Origin: Halobacteriovorax marinus SJ
GTDB lineage: Bacteria; Bdellovibrionota; Bacteriovoracia; Bacteriovoracales; Bacteriovoracaceae
NCBI RefSeq assembly: GCF_000210915.2
Contig: NC_016620.1
Span: 2,108,001-2,172,000 of the forward strand
Direction of reading: 5' to 3'
DNA: 64,000 nt
Part shown: positions 31,229 to 40,785 of the stretch, in pieces
How positions within the stretch are numbered: the first letter of the stretch is position 1
How the letters are laid out: each line of letters opens with the position of its first letter
The notes under the pieces: model-generated
Told to the model about the DNA's origin: nothing
Database searches by the model: none
The model's input: the letters and a program-made list of their open reading frames with translations, nothing else
Translations under genes and position numbers: made by a program

Positions 31229-31648
31229 ATTGAATTATTCAACAATCAAGTTAAACACTCGTGGGAGAGATTCTACAATATCACTGATGAAGTCCAAAAA
31301 GAGCTTTTAAAGCTCAATTCTAAGAATGAAAGCGGCATCGCTTATCTCTTTATCACTCATACAAGCTGTGGACTAACAATTAATGAATCCTACGACCCGA
31401 GTGCTAGAGAGGACCTTGAGAGTTTCCTAGATCATATTGCTCCTAGAAATCTTCCTTTTATAAAGCACACAGACGAAGGTGAAGATGACTCTCCCTCTCA
31501 CATGAAAACAATGCTCGTAAATCAAAGTATGTCATTTATTGTTGATAGAGGGGAACTTATTCTTGGAACTTGGCAAGGGATCTATCTCTGTGAATTTAGA
31601 GATAGTCCCAAGCAAAGAAATATTTTGATAAAATTTGTGGCCGATTAA
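31229..31648 (+). CDS. yjbQ: YjbQ/UPF0047 family protein with ATT start codon
   Basis: An uninterrupted 139-codon frame encodes a full YjbQ protein: HSWERFYNITDEV near the start, ITHTSCGLTINESYDP, IKHTDEGEDDSPSHM and LGTWQGIYLCEFRDS near the end. No ATG, GTG, TTG or CTG exists before the conserved region. Between the in-frame stop at 31217-31219 and the first conserved residues the only start-like codon is ATT at 31229, five bases after AAGGA. Family members bind metal through conserved His; some have thiamine phosphate synthase activity in vitro and their physiological role is unclear. It is divergent from cdaA and convergent with the AAA+ regulator, sharing TTAA at the stops. Confidence 0.85.
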   Translation: MELFNNQVKHSWERFYNITDEVQKELLKLNSKNESGIAYLFITHTSCGLTINESYDPSAREDLESFLDHIAPRNLPFIKHTDEGEDDSPSHMKTMLVNQSMSFIVDRGELILGTWQGIYLCEFRDSPKQRNILIKFVAD

Positions 31649-33585
31649 GCTGCTTTCTTTTCTTCTGTAACTGTCTCCTCTTGAATTCCCTCAAGGACGT
31701 TACTAGATTGAAGAAGTTTCTTTCTTAAGGCCTCTCTAGAGATTCCCATCTCTTTTGCGGCCTTAGACTTATTGCCATTATTTCTCTTAATTTCGGCCAT
31801 GATCATCTCTCTTTCAATGAGGGCCACTCTATCTTTAAGAGGAAGTTTATAATCAGCAACATGAGGTACATTGCCAAACATTCTTCTCTTACTACCTGTA
31901 TCTAGTAATGGAGAAGCATTATTTTCTAGGGCAACCTCTGTAATAATATGGGCCTTTGGATTGTAAAGTACTGCGCGCTCAACACACTTCTTAACTTCAG
32001 CAACGTTTCCAGGCCAATCGTAGTCTTTTAATTTATCAAGGGCCTTCGGAGAGAAGTTCTTAAGCAGAAGACCTTGTTTCTTACACTCTACTTTTAAGAA
32101 GAAATCTACGAGTAAATCAACGTCTTCGATTCTTCTTCTAAGAGGTTCCATATAAATATATGCACTCGATAGATACTCATAAAGATCTCTATCAAACTCT
32201 CCCTTATCGACTAGCTCTGCGAGATCCTTCGTAGAAGTGGCGATCACGCGGGCATCGATAGACATAAATGTCCCAGGAATTTTTCTCTCGTTAAATACAC
32301 TCATTAACTTTCTCTGCTCTTTAATAGAGAGAGAACAAATATCGTGAAGAACAACTGTTCCACCCTTTACTTTGGCAAAGACATTCTTATCCTCTGCTCC
32401 CCAGAGTTCTTCATAGAGATTATCTCTAATAGGCTCTTCACAGCGAATCATTTCAAATCCCTTTAGTCCTCTACATCCTTCGTGGTGAAGAATTTTAGCA
32501 AAGAGAGTTTTCCCCACACCTTTTTCACCATGAACAAGCAGAGGTGAATCTAGATCTTTTGTTTTTATGATGGCACTTCTAAGAGAGGCCACATGAGGCG
32601 TCTTACCAATGAGAGCATGCTTTCTATCAAACGGAGTCGAAAATCTTCTGATCTGACTAGACTCAGACATTGGATTATAGTTATGAAATACTGAAGAGAA
32701 AACAAGTGCGAGAACTTTCATCGTCTTCTCATCTTCAACAGTAAATCTGTCTTCATTTCTCTTATTGAGAATTTGAATAACACCTATAATTTTATCTTCA
32801 CGGTTATGGATTGGATGACAAATGATTGACTTTGTCTCATAACCAAACTGTAAATCGAATTGATCGTTGAATCGGCTCTTATCATCTTGAATATCAATAT
32901 TAAGAGCAACACCAGTAGTAAAAACTGATCCAGCAATTCCTAATCTATAATCAAATTTTAATTTATCTTTATCTACACCGAGTGCTCCAACCGCCTCAAG
33001 TTCATTACTCTCAGGATTGATCAAAAAGATTGATGCTCTCTGCGCATTTAGAATACGGATAACTTCTTCTAGCATTGTATCTAAGAAGCCTTCTTTGTCT
33101 CCAAAGAAAGTAATATCTTTAAATAGTGATAGTAGTAGAGAGAACATTTCAAAACCATCACTGGCCTTAGTGTACTTCTCTTTAAGAGCTGAATCGATGA
33201 GGCACTCTTTTAATCTATCTGTAGAAAAGCTCATTACATATTGCTGTAAGAACTTACTCAGTTCGCGGTCCGCCTCTAGCTCAATTCCATAAATAATATG
33301 TTCATCTTCGATTGAATCTGAAAAGGCCCTAACTACAGTTCCTGTAATATCCAAATGATGACGCTTGAATTGCATTGAAATTGTAAGCTCGTCACCTACA
33401 CTAATTCTCTGCCTGGTAGAAAAACCAAGACCCGTCACACTAATGTCGATAAGTTTGGCGTCATCGATATACTTTCTCTTACCTAACTCATCTTCTTCCT
33501 CAACCAGGAATCTTAAATCATCAGCGTCCTCTACCGGAATTCTAAATGATTGGTAGAATTTAAACTCTGAAAAGCTAGCAAGCAT
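31645..33585 (-). CDS. PilZ-GAF-AAA+ regulator, degenerate sigma54-activator type
   Basis: 646 residues. Domains: PilZ-like (about 10-118, with LIDISVTGLGF as the D/NxSxxG part), GAF (about 160-305), AAA+ (about 325-545) and a Fis-type helix-turn-helix (about 588-626, GNKSKAAKEMGISREALRKKLL). Walker A is intact (GEKGVGKT, 353-360). The sigma54-contact GAFTGA loop is missing: ELWGAEDKNVF runs straight into VKGGTVVLHDI. Walker B reads LHD where LDE is usual, the FRxDLYYRL segment reads FDRDLYEYL, and the WPGNVREL Arg is Ala. It probably regulates transcription without opening sigma54 promoters. c-di-GMP binding by the PilZ part is possible; the RxxxR motif is not clear. Confidence 0.88.
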   Translation of the reverse strand: MLASFSEFKFYQSFRIPVEDADDLRFLVEEEDELGKRKYIDDAKLIDISVTGLGFSTRQRISVGDELTISMQFKRHHLDITGTVVRAFSDSIEDEHIIYGIELEADRELSKFLQQYVMSFSTDRLKECLIDSALKEKYTKASDGFEMFSLLLSLFKDITFFGDKEGFLDTMLEEVIRILNAQRASIFLINPESNELEAVGALGVDKDKLKFDYRLGIAGSVFTTGVALNIDIQDDKSRFNDQFDLQFGYETKSIICHPIHNREDKIIGVIQILNKRNEDRFTVEDEKTMKVLALVFSSVFHNYNPMSESSQIRRFSTPFDRKHALIGKTPHVASLRSAIIKTKDLDSPLLVHGEKGVGKTLFAKILHHEGCRGLKGFEMIRCEEPIRDNLYEELWGAEDKNVFAKVKGGTVVLHDICSLSIKEQRKLMSVFNERKIPGTFMSIDARVIATSTKDLAELVDKGEFDRDLYEYLSSAYIYMEPLRRRIEDVDLLVDFFLKVECKKQGLLLKNFSPKALDKLKDYDWPGNVAEVKKCVERAVLYNPKAHIITEVALENNASPLLDTGSKRRMFGNVPHVADYKLPLKDRVALIEREMIMAEIKRNNGNKSKAAKEMGISREALRKKLLQSSNVLEGIQEETVTEEKKAA

Positions 33586-33637: not shown

Positions 33638-33655
33638 CTATTTCGGAAAATAGAG
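33638..33655. promoter_or_regulatory. Putative operator, copy 1
   Basis: CTATTTCGGAAAATAGAG, a short palindrome (CTATT, six bases, AATAG), repeated with one substitution pattern at 33740-33757. It lies in the 247-base divergent region between the AAA+ regulator and the AdoMet decarboxylase, 53 bases upstream of the regulator's start. Confidence 0.45.
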
Positions 33656-33737: not shown

Positions 33738-33757
33738 CTCTATTCGGGAAAATAGAG
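33738..33757. promoter_or_regulatory. Putative operator, copy 2
   Basis: CTCTATTCGGGAAAATAGAG forms a 7-bp inverted repeat (CTCTATT/AATAGAG) around CGGGAA and repeats the sequence at 33638-33655 about 102 bases away. It is about 75 bases upstream of the decarboxylase start. Paired sites suggest one regulator controls both divergent genes; the Fis-type HTH protein encoded next door is a candidate. Confidence 0.45.
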
Positions 33758-33832
33758 TTACGAAAATATCTAAAAAATGATATTTAGGGCCTTATATATA
33801 TATTTGATTTTTTTACATTTAAGGAGTGGGCC

Positions 33833-34771
33833 TTGTTCTTTGAAGGATCTGAAAAGAAGGCAGAAGTTATTGTTAATCTCGAGGGAAAATCTCTTCGTGA
33901 AATCGATCAAGACTTCTGGTCTAAGTTAGTTGCAAAGTGTGAAGCGACTATTTTATCTAAAATTTCTAATGAAAAATGTGACGCCTATTTATTAAGTGAA
34001 TCTAGTCTCTTTGTTTTTGACGATAGATTTACGATTCTCACTTGCGGTCAAACTATTTTAATAAACTCAATTCTCTACTTCTTAGAAAATCACGATAGAG
34101 ATTCTATTGCACAAATAATTTTCCAAAGAAAGAATGAGTACTTCTCTCACCTTCAAAAAACTCACTTCCTTGATGACGTTAAGAAGATCCAGGAATTCTT
34201 TGAAGGGAGTTCACTTCGCTTTGGACATATGGACGCTCATCACAACTACCTCTTTCACCTTGATAAAGAGTATAAACCACAAAGTGATGATAAGACCTAT
34301 GAGCTACTTGTCTACCATATTGCAAGTGACGTAAGTAAAAACCTTACAAGTGGTAAGTTAAATGCAACTGAGATAAGAGAATTATTGAAACTCGATCAGA
34401 TTATACCTGGTTTTGAAATCGATGACTTCGTCTTCCAACCTTTCGGTTATAGCTTAAATGCTATCAATAAGGATGGTGAGTACTTAACTATTCATGTGAC
34501 TCCGCAGGAAGAGTCAAGTTATGTAAGTTTTGAGTCTTCAATTAATCTTGTAGAGAAGGCGCCAATTATCCTTGAAACTCTGCGCCCACACGCTTTTGAT
34601 TTAATGACTTTTAATCCACAAGGATATGAGAATAGCTTTGAATCAATTCCTGCAATTTATCAAAACCAAACATTAGTAAGAGAAAGTATTAGCTGTGGCT
34701 ATAATGTAGAATTCGCACATTTTTCTAAGAATGAGCGCGAAGTCTTTGCCGCATATAAAATGGAGATATAA
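33833..34771 (+). CDS. S-adenosylmethionine decarboxylase proenzyme, eukaryotic type
   Basis: 312 residues, TTG start with AAGGAG six bases upstream. It matches the animal/plant AMD1 family, not bacterial SpeD. FFEGSEKKAEV carries the two N-terminal Glu residues; AYLLSESSLFV is the self-cleavage site, so Ser57 should become the pyruvoyl group; TCGQT gives the catalytic Cys71; PGFEIDDFVFQPFGYSLNAI and GEYLTIHVTPQEESSYVSFE contain the Ser and His needed for processing. The product, decarboxylated S-adenosylmethionine, is the aminopropyl donor used by spermidine synthase, encoded three bases downstream. A horizontal origin from a eukaryote or an early bacterial branch is possible. Confidence 0.93.
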   Translation: MFFEGSEKKAEVIVNLEGKSLREIDQDFWSKLVAKCEATILSKISNEKCDAYLLSESSLFVFDDRFTILTCGQTILINSILYFLENHDRDSIAQIIFQRKNEYFSHLQKTHFLDDVKKIQEFFEGSSLRFGHMDAHHNYLFHLDKEYKPQSDDKTYELLVYHIASDVSKNLTSGKLNATEIRELLKLDQIIPGFEIDDFVFQPFGYSLNAINKDGEYLTIHVTPQEESSYVSFESSINLVEKAPIILETLRPHAFDLMTFNPQGYENSFESIPAIYQNQTLVRESISCGYNVEFAHFSKNEREVFAAYKMEI

Positions 34772-34774
34772 GAA

Positions 34775-35635
34775 ATGAAATCTAGTCTATGGATCGAAGA
34801 ATTTCAAAGCGATCACTCATCATATAAATTTGAAATTGAAAAAACTCTCTTTTCGGGACAAAGTGAATTCCAAGCTGTCGACGTTGTTCAAACGAAGGGA
34901 CATGGAAAAATGCTCTTAAATGATGGACTTATCATGGTCACAGAAAGAGATGAATTCGCTTACCACGATATGATCGCTCACGTACCTCTCTTCGTTCACC
35001 CTAATCCAAAGAACGTACTCGTTATTGGCGGTGGTGATGGCGGAACAGCTAGAGAAGTCATCAGACATCCAGGCGTTGAAAAGTGTACAATGGTAGAAAT
35101 AGATAAAATGGTTGTGGACGCTTGTATTGAGTTTATTCCACAAACGTCTAAAGACCTTACTGGTGATAGAGTCAATCTTATCATTGGAGATGGTGTTAAA
35201 TTTGTAAAAGAAACGAAAGAGAAATTTGACGTTATATTAGTAGATTCAACAGATCCAATTGGTCCGGCGACTCCTCTCTTTGGAACTGAGTTCTACGAAG
35301 ATCTAAAGAATTGTTTAAGTGACGATGGAATCGTTGTTTCTCAGGGCGAGTCTCCTTGGTATCAAACTGATATTCAAAAGGGACTCATTAAGATACTAGA
35401 CGGTGTTTTTAATGACGTATTCCTCTATACTTTTTCAAACCTCACTTACCCTGGTTCACTTTGGTCATTTACTTTTGCTACAAAGAAGTACCATCCAGTG
35501 AAAGATTTTAATCCTAATAGAGTTACAGAGTCTGGATTAGATTTTGACTACTATAATAAAGGGATTCATAGTGCGGCCTTTGCTCTACCTAGCTTCATCA
35601 GAAAGAATCTAGAAGGACTCATCAAGAATGACTAA
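34775..35635 (+). CDS. speE: Spermidine synthase
   Basis: 286 residues. LWIEEFQSDHSSYKFEIEKTLFSGQSEFQ start region, the nucleotide-binding motif VLVIGGGDGGTAREV (85-90) and the catalytic Asp segment ILVDSTDPIGPATPLF are diagnostic. It transfers the aminopropyl group of decarboxylated AdoMet to putrescine. Three bases follow the decarboxylase stop, so the two are translated together; the arginine decarboxylase and agmatinase that supply putrescine lie 2-5 kb downstream on the other strand. Confidence 0.96.
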   Translation: MKSSLWIEEFQSDHSSYKFEIEKTLFSGQSEFQAVDVVQTKGHGKMLLNDGLIMVTERDEFAYHDMIAHVPLFVHPNPKNVLVIGGGDGGTAREVIRHPGVEKCTMVEIDKMVVDACIEFIPQTSKDLTGDRVNLIIGDGVKFVKETKEKFDVILVDSTDPIGPATPLFGTEFYEDLKNCLSDDGIVVSQGESPWYQTDIQKGLIKILDGVFNDVFLYTFSNLTYPGSLWSFTFATKKYHPVKDFNPNRVTESGLDFDYYNKGIHSAAFALPSFIRKNLEGLIKND

Positions 35636-36098
35636 GAAGTATTGGCTCATGAAAACTGAGCCCGATACATTCTCGATTGACGACTTAAAGTCTAGGCCAA
35701 ATAAAACTGAAAGTTGGGATGGTGTGAGAAATTATCAGGCCAGAAACTTCATGCGCGACGAGATGAAAAAGGGAGATTTAATTCTTATCTATCATTCAAG
35801 TTGCAAGATTCCAGGAATTGCTGGAATAGCAGAGGTCGCCAAAGAGTCTCACCCTGATCACACCTGCTTTGATAAAACATCTAAATATTATGATCCAAAA
35901 TCTAGCGAGGAAAACCCTCGCTGGTTCATGGTATCAGTTAAGTTTAAAAAGAAATTTAAAAACTTTCTTCCACTCAATGAGCTCAAAGAGCAAAAGAAAT
36001 TAAAAGATATGCTCCTTCTTCAAAAAGGAAGCAGGCTCTCTATTCAGCCTGTGACTAAGAAAGAATATGACTTCATAACTCAAGAACTCGCAAAATAA
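35628..36098 (+). CDS. EVE-domain protein
   Basis: 156 residues, nearly all one EVE (PUA-like) domain: YWLMKTEPDTFSIDDL, WDGVRNYQARNFMRDEMKKGD, LIYHSSCKIPGIAGIAEV and the C-terminal QPVTKKEYDFI. EVE proteins resemble human THYN1 and related readers of modified DNA or RNA bases. It overlaps the end of speE by eight bases, which ties its expression to polyamine synthesis, although a functional link is not obvious. Terminator follows. Confidence 0.92.
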   Translation: MTKKYWLMKTEPDTFSIDDLKSRPNKTESWDGVRNYQARNFMRDEMKKGDLILIYHSSCKIPGIAGIAEVAKESHPDHTCFDKTSKYYDPKSSEENPRWFMVSVKFKKKFKNFLPLNELKEQKKLKDMLLLQKGSRLSIQPVTKKEYDFITQELAK

Positions 36099-37939: not shown

Positions 37940-39847
37940 TTAAGATTCTAAGTAAGTATAACTTCTAAGACAGTCTTCATAGAAATCAACTAACTTCACA
38001 CCTCTTCTTGGTTGAATCTTTCCTCTTGCAACTTCTCTATCCACAACCTTCTTTAAAGAGTAGGCCATATACTGTGGATTGTACTGCATTGTTGAGAGGA
38101 CTTTCGCACAAGACTGTCCCTTTATAACTTCTTCAATATAGAAACCACTTTCATCTTCTTCATCTTTAAAGACGTGAACTTCATTGAGTCTTCCAAAGAG
38201 ATTGTGCATATCCCCCATCACGTCTTGGTAAGCTCCAGTTAAAAAGATTCCTAAGTAATAATCCTCTTCACCTAATTCATGGACCGGAAAAGTCGTACGA
38301 TGGCCAGTTTCATCAATAAACTTATCAATCTTACCGTCACTATCACATGTGATATCAGCAATTGAGCAATTCACCGTCGGCTTCTCATGCAGTCTAGTAA
38401 TCGGAACAACAGGGAGAACTTGCCCAATGGCCCAGCTATCCGCGGCCGATTGAAAGACAGAGAAGTTACATAGATACTTTGCAGAGGTATCATCAACTAA
38501 GGACTGCAGCTCCTCTGGAACTTTATCTGAGTCAATAAGCTTTGAAGTAATATAATTTAAAACTCTTGTATAAATTGTTTCAATCTTTGCTCTTTCCTCT
38601 AGAGAAAGAATCCCTAGCTTAAAAGCATTGAGAGCACTTTCTTTTAATTGAATAACATCATTATAAGTTTCTTGTAGTCTCTCATTATTGTGAAGATCTT
38701 CTTCTAGCTCTCGCATATTGCTAACAAAGATATGCTCTCCCGTAACTTTCTTCGTATTAAAATCTGAAGTAGCGTCAATCTTACCAATTACATTTGTTAC
38801 AACACATGAATGGTGAGCTGTTACTGCACGACCAGACTCAGTTACAATATTTGGGTGAGTCACGCCTTCTAAGTCACAAATTTGTTTTAAACTATAGATC
38901 ACATCAGCAACGTATTCACTTAGAGAGTAATTCGTAGATGAATCATTAATCGTTCTCGTTCCATCATAATCAACACCGAGACCACCACCAATATCAAAGT
39001 ACTCAAGAGGAACACCGGCCTGAACAAGCTTAGCGTAAATTCTTCCGCCCTCACTGATCGCCTCTTTAAAAGATCTGATCTCAGGAATCTGTGAACCTAT
39101 ATGAAAGTGAAAGAGCTTAATGCAATCACCAAGACCGTTTGCCCTAAAGAGCTCAACAGCTTGAAGCATTTCTGAAACAGAGAGACCAAATTTGGCCCTC
39201 TCACCAGAGGAGCCAGACCATCTTCCACAGCCTGGAACACTCATCTTTCCACGAAGACCAATAAGTGGCTCTACACCAACTTCTTTACTGAGGCGAATAA
39301 TCTTCTTTATCTCTGAAAATTTCTCAATCACGATGATAATCTTTCTTCCCACTTCTCTTCCAAGAAGAGCAAGCTTCATATAATCATCATCTTTATATCC
39401 ATTTAAAATAGTCAGGGCCTTTTTACTGTCGTTCATAGCAAGTACTGCTAGTAACTCAGGCTTACTTCCTGCCTCAAGGCCGTAATCATACTTAAGACCA
39501 GCGTCGATAATCTCTTCAACGACCTCACGCATTTGATTCACTTTAATTGGGTAAACACCGTAGTAGCGACCTTCATAATCATATTCTTCAATCGTTTCTC
39601 TAAAGACTTTATTAATGAGTCTAACTCTTGAGCGAAGAATATCGTGGAAGCGAATAACTGCAGGAAATTTTACTCCCTGCTCTTTCATCTCTTTGATGAC
39701 TGAGGCAATATCAAACTCTCCAGACTTCTTAGACTCTGTTCTAACAGTTAAATTACCAAGAGAATTTACAGAGAAGTAACCTTCACCCCATTGATTAATC
39801 TTATATAATTTCTTTGAATCATTTATAGTCCACTTACTCATGGTCAT
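37940..39847 (-). CDS. speA: Biosynthetic arginine decarboxylase
   Basis: 635 residues, the size of SpeA-type fold III enzymes. PLP-lysine motif YYGVYPIKVNQ (Lys102), GLEAGSKPELLA, FHIGSQIP, the EYFDIGGGLGVDYDG loop and the C-terminal catalytic Cys/Asp region (FLTGAYQDVMGDMHNLFGR). It converts arginine to agmatine and CO2. Agmatinase (speB) lies just upstream with a two-base gap, so agmatine passes to putrescine, and the decarboxylase/speE pair nearby makes spermidine. Confidence 0.96.
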   Translation of the reverse strand: MTMSKWTINDSKKLYKINQWGEGYFSVNSLGNLTVRTESKKSGEFDIASVIKEMKEQGVKFPAVIRFHDILRSRVRLINKVFRETIEEYDYEGRYYGVYPIKVNQMREVVEEIIDAGLKYDYGLEAGSKPELLAVLAMNDSKKALTILNGYKDDDYMKLALLGREVGRKIIIVIEKFSEIKKIIRLSKEVGVEPLIGLRGKMSVPGCGRWSGSSGERAKFGLSVSEMLQAVELFRANGLGDCIKLFHFHIGSQIPEIRSFKEAISEGGRIYAKLVQAGVPLEYFDIGGGLGVDYDGTRTINDSSTNYSLSEYVADVIYSLKQICDLEGVTHPNIVTESGRAVTAHHSCVVTNVIGKIDATSDFNTKKVTGEHIFVSNMRELEEDLHNNERLQETYNDVIQLKESALNAFKLGILSLEERAKIETIYTRVLNYITSKLIDSDKVPEELQSLVDDTSAKYLCNFSVFQSAADSWAIGQVLPVVPITRLHEKPTVNCSIADITCDSDGKIDKFIDETGHRTTFPVHELGEEDYYLGIFLTGAYQDVMGDMHNLFGRLNEVHVFKDEEDESGFYIEEVIKGQSCAKVLSTMQYNPQYMAYSLKKVVDREVARGKIQPRRGVKLVDFYEDCLRSYTYLES

Positions 39848-39849
39848 TC

Positions 39850-40785
39850 CTAATTTAGTGCAATTAATAATTCTCGTACAACCTTGGCCGCAAAGACATC
39901 ACTATTTCCTGTCGGATCAATAACGGGAGATAATTCCACCACATCACAACCAACAAAATTCTTATTCATCAAGATCTTAACAAAGGATATGAATGAATGG
40001 AAATCTTCTCCACCCGGCTCCGGTGTTCCCGTACCAGGAAAGAAGCTAGGGTCAAAGTAATCGAGATCAAAAGTTAAATAGATTGGTCTATCGTTAGCAA
40101 TAGAGCTTACCGCTTCTAAAAAATCAGCACGAGAAGTTTTAATTGTTCCATGCTCGTGCATCCAATTAAATTCATCTTTAGTACCAGAGCGAATTCCATA
40201 CTGAATCAATTCATGTCCATCTTTAAAATGGTCAAGTGCTCTTCTAATAATAGAGGCATGAGAGTAATGATGTCCCAAGTAGCCGTCTCGAAGGTCTGCG
40301 TGAGCATCGAGGTGAATGACCACCAGATCATCATATTGATCTAAGTACGTTTTTAGAGGAGCGAAACTAATTGAATGCTCTCCACCAAGAGTGAGAGTTT
40401 TGATTCCACTCTCTTTTAGATCTACATCACTGAAGATCTCTAAGAACTCATCTGTTGCCTGCTTCCAATTAGCGTCGGCATCATCACTCGTTCCCACATT
40501 TAAATTTCCAAGGTCGTAGAACTTACGAATTTCATCGGTACCACTTTTTAAGTAGGGAGAATAATCTTCGATTCCATCACTGATGATTCTAAGAGCATCG
40601 GGTCCGTCTTTTGTTCCCTTTCTAAAACATGCCGTTCCATCAAAACCAAAACCAATCAAATGGGTAGCATTTGCATGAAGCTTATCAGTCCAATGAGAGT
40701 TCAAATAAACTTCTTCAGGTCTTTGCAACTTAGGTAGAGAATCTTTAATAATTTCAGTGCTCAAGCGGCGAACTCCTCTCGTCAT
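39850..40785 (-). CDS. speB: Agmatinase (ureohydrolase family)
   Basis: 311 residues. All manganese-ligand motifs of the arginase/agmatinase fold are present: GGEHSISF, VIHLDAHADLRDGY and YLTFDLDYFDPSFFPGTGTPEPGG. Substrate assignment as agmatine rests on the tight operon with arginine decarboxylase (two-base gap); the product is putrescine plus urea. The first 40 residues are an extension before the fold and may be a regulatory segment. A 109-base gap with a possible promoter separates it from the M14 peptidase gene upstream. Confidence 0.9.
   Translation of the reverse strand: MTRGVRRLSTEIIKDSLPKLQRPEEVYLNSHWTDKLHANATHLIGFGFDGTACFRKGTKDGPDALRIISDGIEDYSPYLKSGTDEIRKFYDLGNLNVGTSDDADANWKQATDEFLEIFSDVDLKESGIKTLTLGGEHSISFAPLKTYLDQYDDLVVIHLDAHADLRDGYLGHHYSHASIIRRALDHFKDGHELIQYGIRSGTKDEFNWMHEHGTIKTSRADFLEAVSSIANDRPIYLTFDLDYFDPSFFPGTGTPEPGGEDFHSFISFVKILMNKNFVGCDVVELSPVIDPTGNSDVFAAKVVRELLIALN

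Follow-up and report, generated by a model that had tools for sequence, protein, structure and literature searches.

At the sequence level, eukaryotic S-adenosylmethionine decarboxylase (AdoMetDC) hardly resembles bacterial SpeD, and its evolutionary origin is debated. Class 1b SpeD has one domain, of about 120 aa, and works as a dimer. The 2019 work on bacterial class 2 AdoMetDCs is said in its abstract to conclude that these enzymes occur in bacteria and work, and it reportedly describes one beside a membrane spermidine-synthase fusion in some genomes. As cited in PMC10407285, functional class 2 AdoMetDCs have already been reported in bacteria, with a eukaryotic donor proposed (Li et al. 2019, Biochem J 476:2579). 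A fusion ancestor of eukaryotic AdoMetDC has been proposed and not yet found (PMC10407285). Like the bacterial enzymes of Li et al., as the citing article presents them, the gene analyzed here, speD2 of Halobacteriovorax marinus SJ, encodes a class 2 enzyme in a bacterial genome; bacterial class 2 AdoMetDCs are thus already known, and speD2 adds one more (Li et al. 2019, cited in PMC10407285). What we add is the class 2 share of a phylum, its exclusion of class 1, the nested Pseudomonadota copies, and co-transfer with speE.

speD2 lies in a 64,000-nt stretch of contig NC_016620.1 (positions 2,108,001 to 2,172,000, forward strand), hereafter the window. Human AMD1 (1JL0, 1MSV), potato (1MHM), and T. 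brucei (5TVF) AdoMetDCs belong to the same PF01536 family and match the predicted fold of the speD2 product over its full length. The self-cleavage motif, catalytic Cys, processing Ser and His, and putrescine-site acids are common to the eukaryotic class 2 enzymes and the speD2 product, which is about 29-32% identical to them and has shorter loops. Unlike eukaryotic class 2 genes, speD2 shares a bacterial operon with speE, which is of bacterial type (Table 1). Class 1b SpeD (T. maritima 1TLU, A. aeolicus 2III) is of the same superfamily, but a sequence match to the speD2 product is absent.

Table 1. Features of the speD2 region, in window coordinates.
Feature	Position	Strand	Evidence or remark
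Candidate operator-like dyad CTATTTCGGAAAATAG	33638..33653	.	speD2 upstream region
Second, imperfect dyad copy CTATTCGGGAAAATAG	33740..33755	.	102 bp downstream of first dyad
AAGGAG Shine-Dalgarno	33821..33826	+	Sequence; 6 nt ahead of TTG start
speD2, class 2 (eukaryote-type) S-adenosylmethionine decarboxylase proenzyme (by sequence and predicted fold)	33833..34771	+	312 aa, TTG start; PF01536, PDB, fold
Glu56-Ser57 codons, predicted self-cleavage bond	33998..34003	+	Aligned with human Glu67-Ser68
speE, spermidine synthase (bacterial type)	34775..35635	+	PF01564 1.7e-64; TIGR00417 and NF002010 over cut-off
EVE-domain protein	35628..36098	+	PF01878 1e-59; overlaps speE end
speA, biosynthetic arginine decarboxylase	37940..39847	-	Convergent; TIGR01273 and NF003763 over cut-off
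speB, agmatinase	39850..40785	-	2 nt upstream of speA; TIGR01230 210.7 bits (cut-off 174.3); PF00491

The preliminary description had called this ORF a eukaryotic-type AdoMetDC, quite unlike bacterial SpeD, on the strength of motifs that are all present in the product: FFEGSEKK (residues 2-9), LLSESS (53-58), TCG (70-72), GYSLN (205-209), and IHVTPQEE (220-227). The assignment held up. In a Pfam search, PF01536 matched with E 1.7e-58 and 198.8 bits (curated cut-off, 22.2 bits) over profile positions 3-314 of 343, and the PDB sequence match was human AMD1 (4e-31). The contrary outcome raised in that description, a database placement with class 1 SpeD, was looked at as well; the class 1 profile PF02675 had zero matches to the protein in the Pfam search. 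The NCBIfam equivalog TIGR00535 (SAM_DCase) aligned over positions 1-306 of 334 with 140.4 bits, under its cut-off of 233 bits; the class 2 copies of Colwellia and Shewanella also score below it. We therefore assign speD2 to a bacterial class 2 branch outside that equivalog. Judged by its sequence, Halobacteriovorax speD2 is a class 2 (eukaryote-type) AdoMetDC and not a class 1 SpeD.

TTG is the only in-frame start codon upstream of the conserved N-terminus. Weak starts recur in this gene: across 111 loci with speE adjacent or near, speD2 begins with TTG in 45, GTG in 25, ATG in 39, and another codon in 2, and speE with TTG in 2, GTG in 10, and ATG in 99, a count that includes duplicate loci and compares speD2 with its neighbor rather than with the genome background. 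Weak speD2 start codons may hold AdoMetDC translation down. Both dyads fall within the 247-bp gap that separates speD2 from a divergent regulator-like gene. Three sites in the genome match the dyad at no more than one mismatch, two of them upstream of speD2, and the first dyad is exact in one same-genus genome and partial in another. The divergent neighbor (31645-33585, minus strand) encodes a single protein with PilZ, GAF, sigma-54-activator AAA+, and Fis-type HTH domains, a candidate regulator. An Rfam search over the whole window returned nothing above threshold, and thus no known riboswitch upstream of speD2.

We take the roles of the AMD1 residues (E67 and S68 in cleavage, Cys82, Ser229 and His243 in processing, and the putrescine site) to be those derived from AMD1 structures. 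Human F7, E8, E11, K12, and L65-S66-E67-S68-S69 are kept in the aligned speD2 product, and human C82, F223, S229, and H243 correspond to C71, F201, S207, and H221. The putrescine-site acids D174, E178, and E256 are D153, E157, and E234; T176 and F285 are kept too. Invariant across 20 Bdellovibrionota proteins and human AMD1 are F3, E4, G5, E7, K8, and L54, S55, E56, S57, S58 (speD2 numbering), and further T70, C71, G72, F201, S207, H221, and E234. Three human residues are changed in the speD2 product: K80 to L69, C226 to F204, and E247 to Q225. The K80 position is I or L in all 20 aligned Bdellovibrionota proteins, and the C226 position is variable among them. At the E247 position, 12 of the 20 have Q and 8 have E; because Q is common there in the bacterial set, the change to Q225 probably does not eliminate activity. 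Given the residue changes, substrate affinity of the speD2 product may differ from that of the human enzyme.

An AlphaFold2 model of the speD2 product, built from 37 sequences, reached a pLDDT of 92.8 and a pTM of 0.91. Foldseek ranked human AMD1 at the top (E 3.6e-26), and VIA-align 2 superposed the model on human AMD1 1jl0 with Z 36.0 and 2.1 A over 294 residues. The T. maritima class 1b SpeD covers model residues 150-289 (Z 9.2, 107 residues), which fits a class 2 architecture of two class 1b-like domains joined in one chain. At 312 aa, the speD2 product also has the length of such single-chain enzymes, about 310-370 aa.

The view that eukaryotic-type enzymes are rare in bacteria, taken in the preliminary description, proved too strong. 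PF01536 was matched in 91 of 369 Bdellovibrionota genomes, one of them by chance (G057), leaving about 90, and occurs in eight families (f1, f4, f6, f8, f9, f10, f11, and f22). Among 398 evenly drawn Pseudomonadota genomes, 10 carry class 2 (about 2.5%, one being the seed), and a scan of 85k species genomes confirmed 350 stretches as relatives. Two weak PF01536 matches, G057:C115 and G039:C2, were rejected as class 2, lying inside OpuC-like ABC ATPase frames. A locus ranked under Myxococcota (L093) was likewise rejected as a third phylum, its class 1 match falling at the contig position and number of G076 (f1). Collections of phage, plasmid, and viral contigs yielded no relative, and so a mobile vector was not found.

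The class 1 profile PF02675 was matched in 159 of the 369 Bdellovibrionota genomes. Both classes occur together in 9 genomes, whereas the totals would predict about 39 (Fisher p 1e-14, only indicative because the genomes are related). Class 2 largely excludes class 1 across Bdellovibrionota, usually replacing it. The class 1 matches in the nine double genomes are mostly ORFs of 350-386 aa, and one that we looked at joins a class 1 domain to a hydrophobic, membrane-like stretch. The named loci are the best 80 of the 350 relatives, picked by similarity to the window gene; 12 of the 15 genomes reached through such loci are without a class 1 match.

Some other frames were recorded in passing. L162:1259-2335 (minus strand) encodes 358 aa, of which an N-terminal PF02675 domain is followed by a long hydrophobic stretch; class 2 is present in the same genome. 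In Bdellovibrionota family f3 (G130-G194), nearly all PF02675 matches are in frames of 427-496 aa, a length that could accommodate SpeD-SpeE fusions. L158:1955-2875 (plus strand) is a very divergent class 2 homolog that lacks both the FFEGSEKK start and a neighboring speE. L157:1487-2287 (minus strand, family f8) is a degenerate 266-aa class 2-like protein that keeps VLSEST and TCG; as a query, it gave weak matches only, to ordinary class 2 genes. Its gene overlaps L157:2268-4283 (minus strand), whose hydrophobic product of 671 aa matches Spermine_synth weakly, and by sequence the pair is possibly a polyamine-independent system.

We built a careful, unrooted tree of 78 rows, leaving out three long-branched rows and some near-duplicates of 88. 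All Bacteriovoracaceae (f1) and all Pseudomonadota fell in one set (100/98), with two Pseudomonadota clades nested inside Bacteriovoracaceae, partly on moderately supported branches. Clade one (Colwelliaceae, Psychrosphaera, Kangiella, and Kordiimonas; 100/100) is sister to the window speD2 (99/92), and clade two comprises Ferrimonas, Marinomonas, Pokkaliibacter, Shewanella, and Endozoicomonas (95/92). Enforcing a single Pseudomonadota clade costs 41.7 log-likelihood units at p-AU 0.043, a modest rejection of a group that was named after the tree was seen. The similarity-based choice of the 80 loci could bias the tree; the even Pseudomonadota sample is free of that bias, and nine of its ten sequences (one being the seed) join clade one or clade two, and the remaining sequence is a long branch. 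In the SpeE tree, Colwellia-type SpeE is nearest the window SpeE, with up to 75% identity and 93 SH-aLRT, and clade two carries an unrelated SpeE on a long branch. Most of clade one has speA-speB divergent from speD2-speE, and several members of clade two have the order speE-speA-speD2-speB. Together, the SpeE tree and gene order indicate that speD2 and speE moved jointly into clade one and that speD2 alone moved into clade two. Since each clade has Bacteriovoracaceae as its outgroup, movement from Bdellovibrionota to Pseudomonadota is the simplest direction, and marine Pseudomonadota apparently received class 2 from Bacteriovoracaceae on at least two occasions.

Three eukaryotic rows (human, potato, and T. 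brucei), checked against PDB chains, entered the trees; yeast and other eukaryotes were left out. Holding the eukaryotes as one side of a branch gave a better likelihood than the free search (p-AU 0.82), and a quick tree with the even Pseudomonadota sample placed them on one side with SH-aLRT 98. The free careful tree set T. brucei apart, its branch measuring 3.06, a placement probably due to branch length. The closest bacterial proteins score 160 bits to human and 159 to T. brucei; among eukaryotes, human-potato scores 171 and human-T. brucei 126. These comparisons are compatible with bacterial class 2 forming one clan apart from the three eukaryotes, and they suggest one ancient inter-domain transfer, to which the unrooted tree gives no direction. 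The preliminary description had posed lateral transfer or relict as the choice and proposed a phylogeny including Bdellovibrionota. The trees bear out lateral movement in one respect, the onward transfer from Bdellovibrionota to marine Pseudomonadota seen in the nested clades, and fit either direction of exchange between eukaryotes and bacteria, the relict reading included. Taken whole, the explanation in which we have high confidence is that speD2 encodes a functional pyruvoyl class 2 AdoMetDC, that bacteria and eukaryotes exchanged the gene once, in ancient times, and that at least two onward transfers followed.

Compatible with this explanation, and settling the direction it leaves open, would be a eukaryotic invention of class 2, with a Bdellovibrionota ancestor acquiring the gene, replacing class 1 with it, and spreading it; we regard this as fairly probable. 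Class 2 AdoMetDC is broadly present in eukaryotes, and in bacteria it was seen here in two phyla only, among the best 80 of 350 relatives listed. Its distribution inside Bdellovibrionota is patchy, and the neighboring SpeE is bacterial in type, which fits a swap of the decarboxylase alone. Acquisition from a eukaryote is also the published position, as PMC10407285 gives it in citing Li et al. 2019. The bacterial sequences nevertheless lie outside any sampled eukaryotic group, one-sided eukaryotes being unrejected and better in likelihood; T. brucei is nearer some bacterial proteins (159 bits) than human or potato (119 and 129), and eukaryotic sampling amounts to three sequences.

The opposite course, in which two class 1b domains fused in bacteria, diversified in Bdellovibrionota, and were acquired by the ancestor of eukaryotes, seems to us doubtful. 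It draws on the deep class 2 diversity over eight Bdellovibrionota families, on the existence of degenerate class 2 relatives there, and on unrooted trees in which the eukaryotic stem joins among deep Bdellovibrionota lineages. That tree is unrooted, however, the attachment point is unreliable because the eukaryotic branches are long, eukaryotes number three in the trees, and the patchy distribution fits acquisition as well. We hold it correspondingly unlikely that class 2 is not a eukaryotic invention and that it arose in the Bdellovibrionota line, survived there as a working, usually sole AdoMetDC, and was acquired by the eukaryote ancestor.

On the preferred reading, that of a functional class 2 AdoMetDC, the speD2 proenzyme would cut itself between Glu56 and Ser57, and Ser57 would become the pyruvoyl group that decarboxylates AdoMet. 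SpeE would then transfer the aminopropyl group onto putrescine to form spermidine, with putrescine supplied from arginine via SpeA and SpeB, encoded 3-6 kb away. As the preliminary description stated, speE directly follows speD2, starting 3 nt past its stop, and the best PDB matches of its product are the B. subtilis-type 1iy9 and T. maritima 1inl SpeE. speE follows speD2 in 83 of 89 Bdellovibrionota loci, some of them duplicates, and a contig end cuts three of the other six. The EVE-domain gene adjoins speE in many Bacteriovoracaceae. Genes for all four steps (SpeA-SpeB-SpeD-SpeE) are present, and the genome has no match to PF04371, the alternative agmatine route. PF02675 had no match anywhere in the genome, in a search that was positive in eight control genomes; with no class 1 SpeD recognizable, the speD2 product would stand in its place. 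The simplest reading of the gene content is a route from arginine through agmatine and putrescine to spermidine, with the class 2 enzyme as the sole recognizable AdoMetDC. We infer self-processing, catalysis, putrescine stimulation, and spermidine production by the Halobacteriovorax speD2 system. That the product instead decarboxylates a different substrate from AdoMet or works in a pathway independent of polyamines is very improbable: such a role has been put forward for AdoMetDCs associated with membrane-bound spermidine-synthase fusions, a linkage of this kind is seen in one Bdellovibrionota genome (L157, with its degenerate class 2 protein and 671-aa neighbor), and class 1b SpeD relatives that decarboxylate ornithine or arginine exist (PMC10407285), but the partner here is a stand-alone, full-score SpeE, SpeA and SpeB are nearby, and a second AdoMetDC is absent from the genome.

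On the preferred explanation, class 2 speD is a settled part of the gene repertoire of Bacteriovoracaceae and of further Bdellovibrionota. In this phylum of predatory bacteria and their kin, class 2 occurs widely and mostly stands as the sole AdoMetDC, which offers sampling that could help root the family. Its trees also suggest a eukaryotic-type enzyme handed from a predator's relatives to marine bacteria, apparently once together with its partner enzyme.
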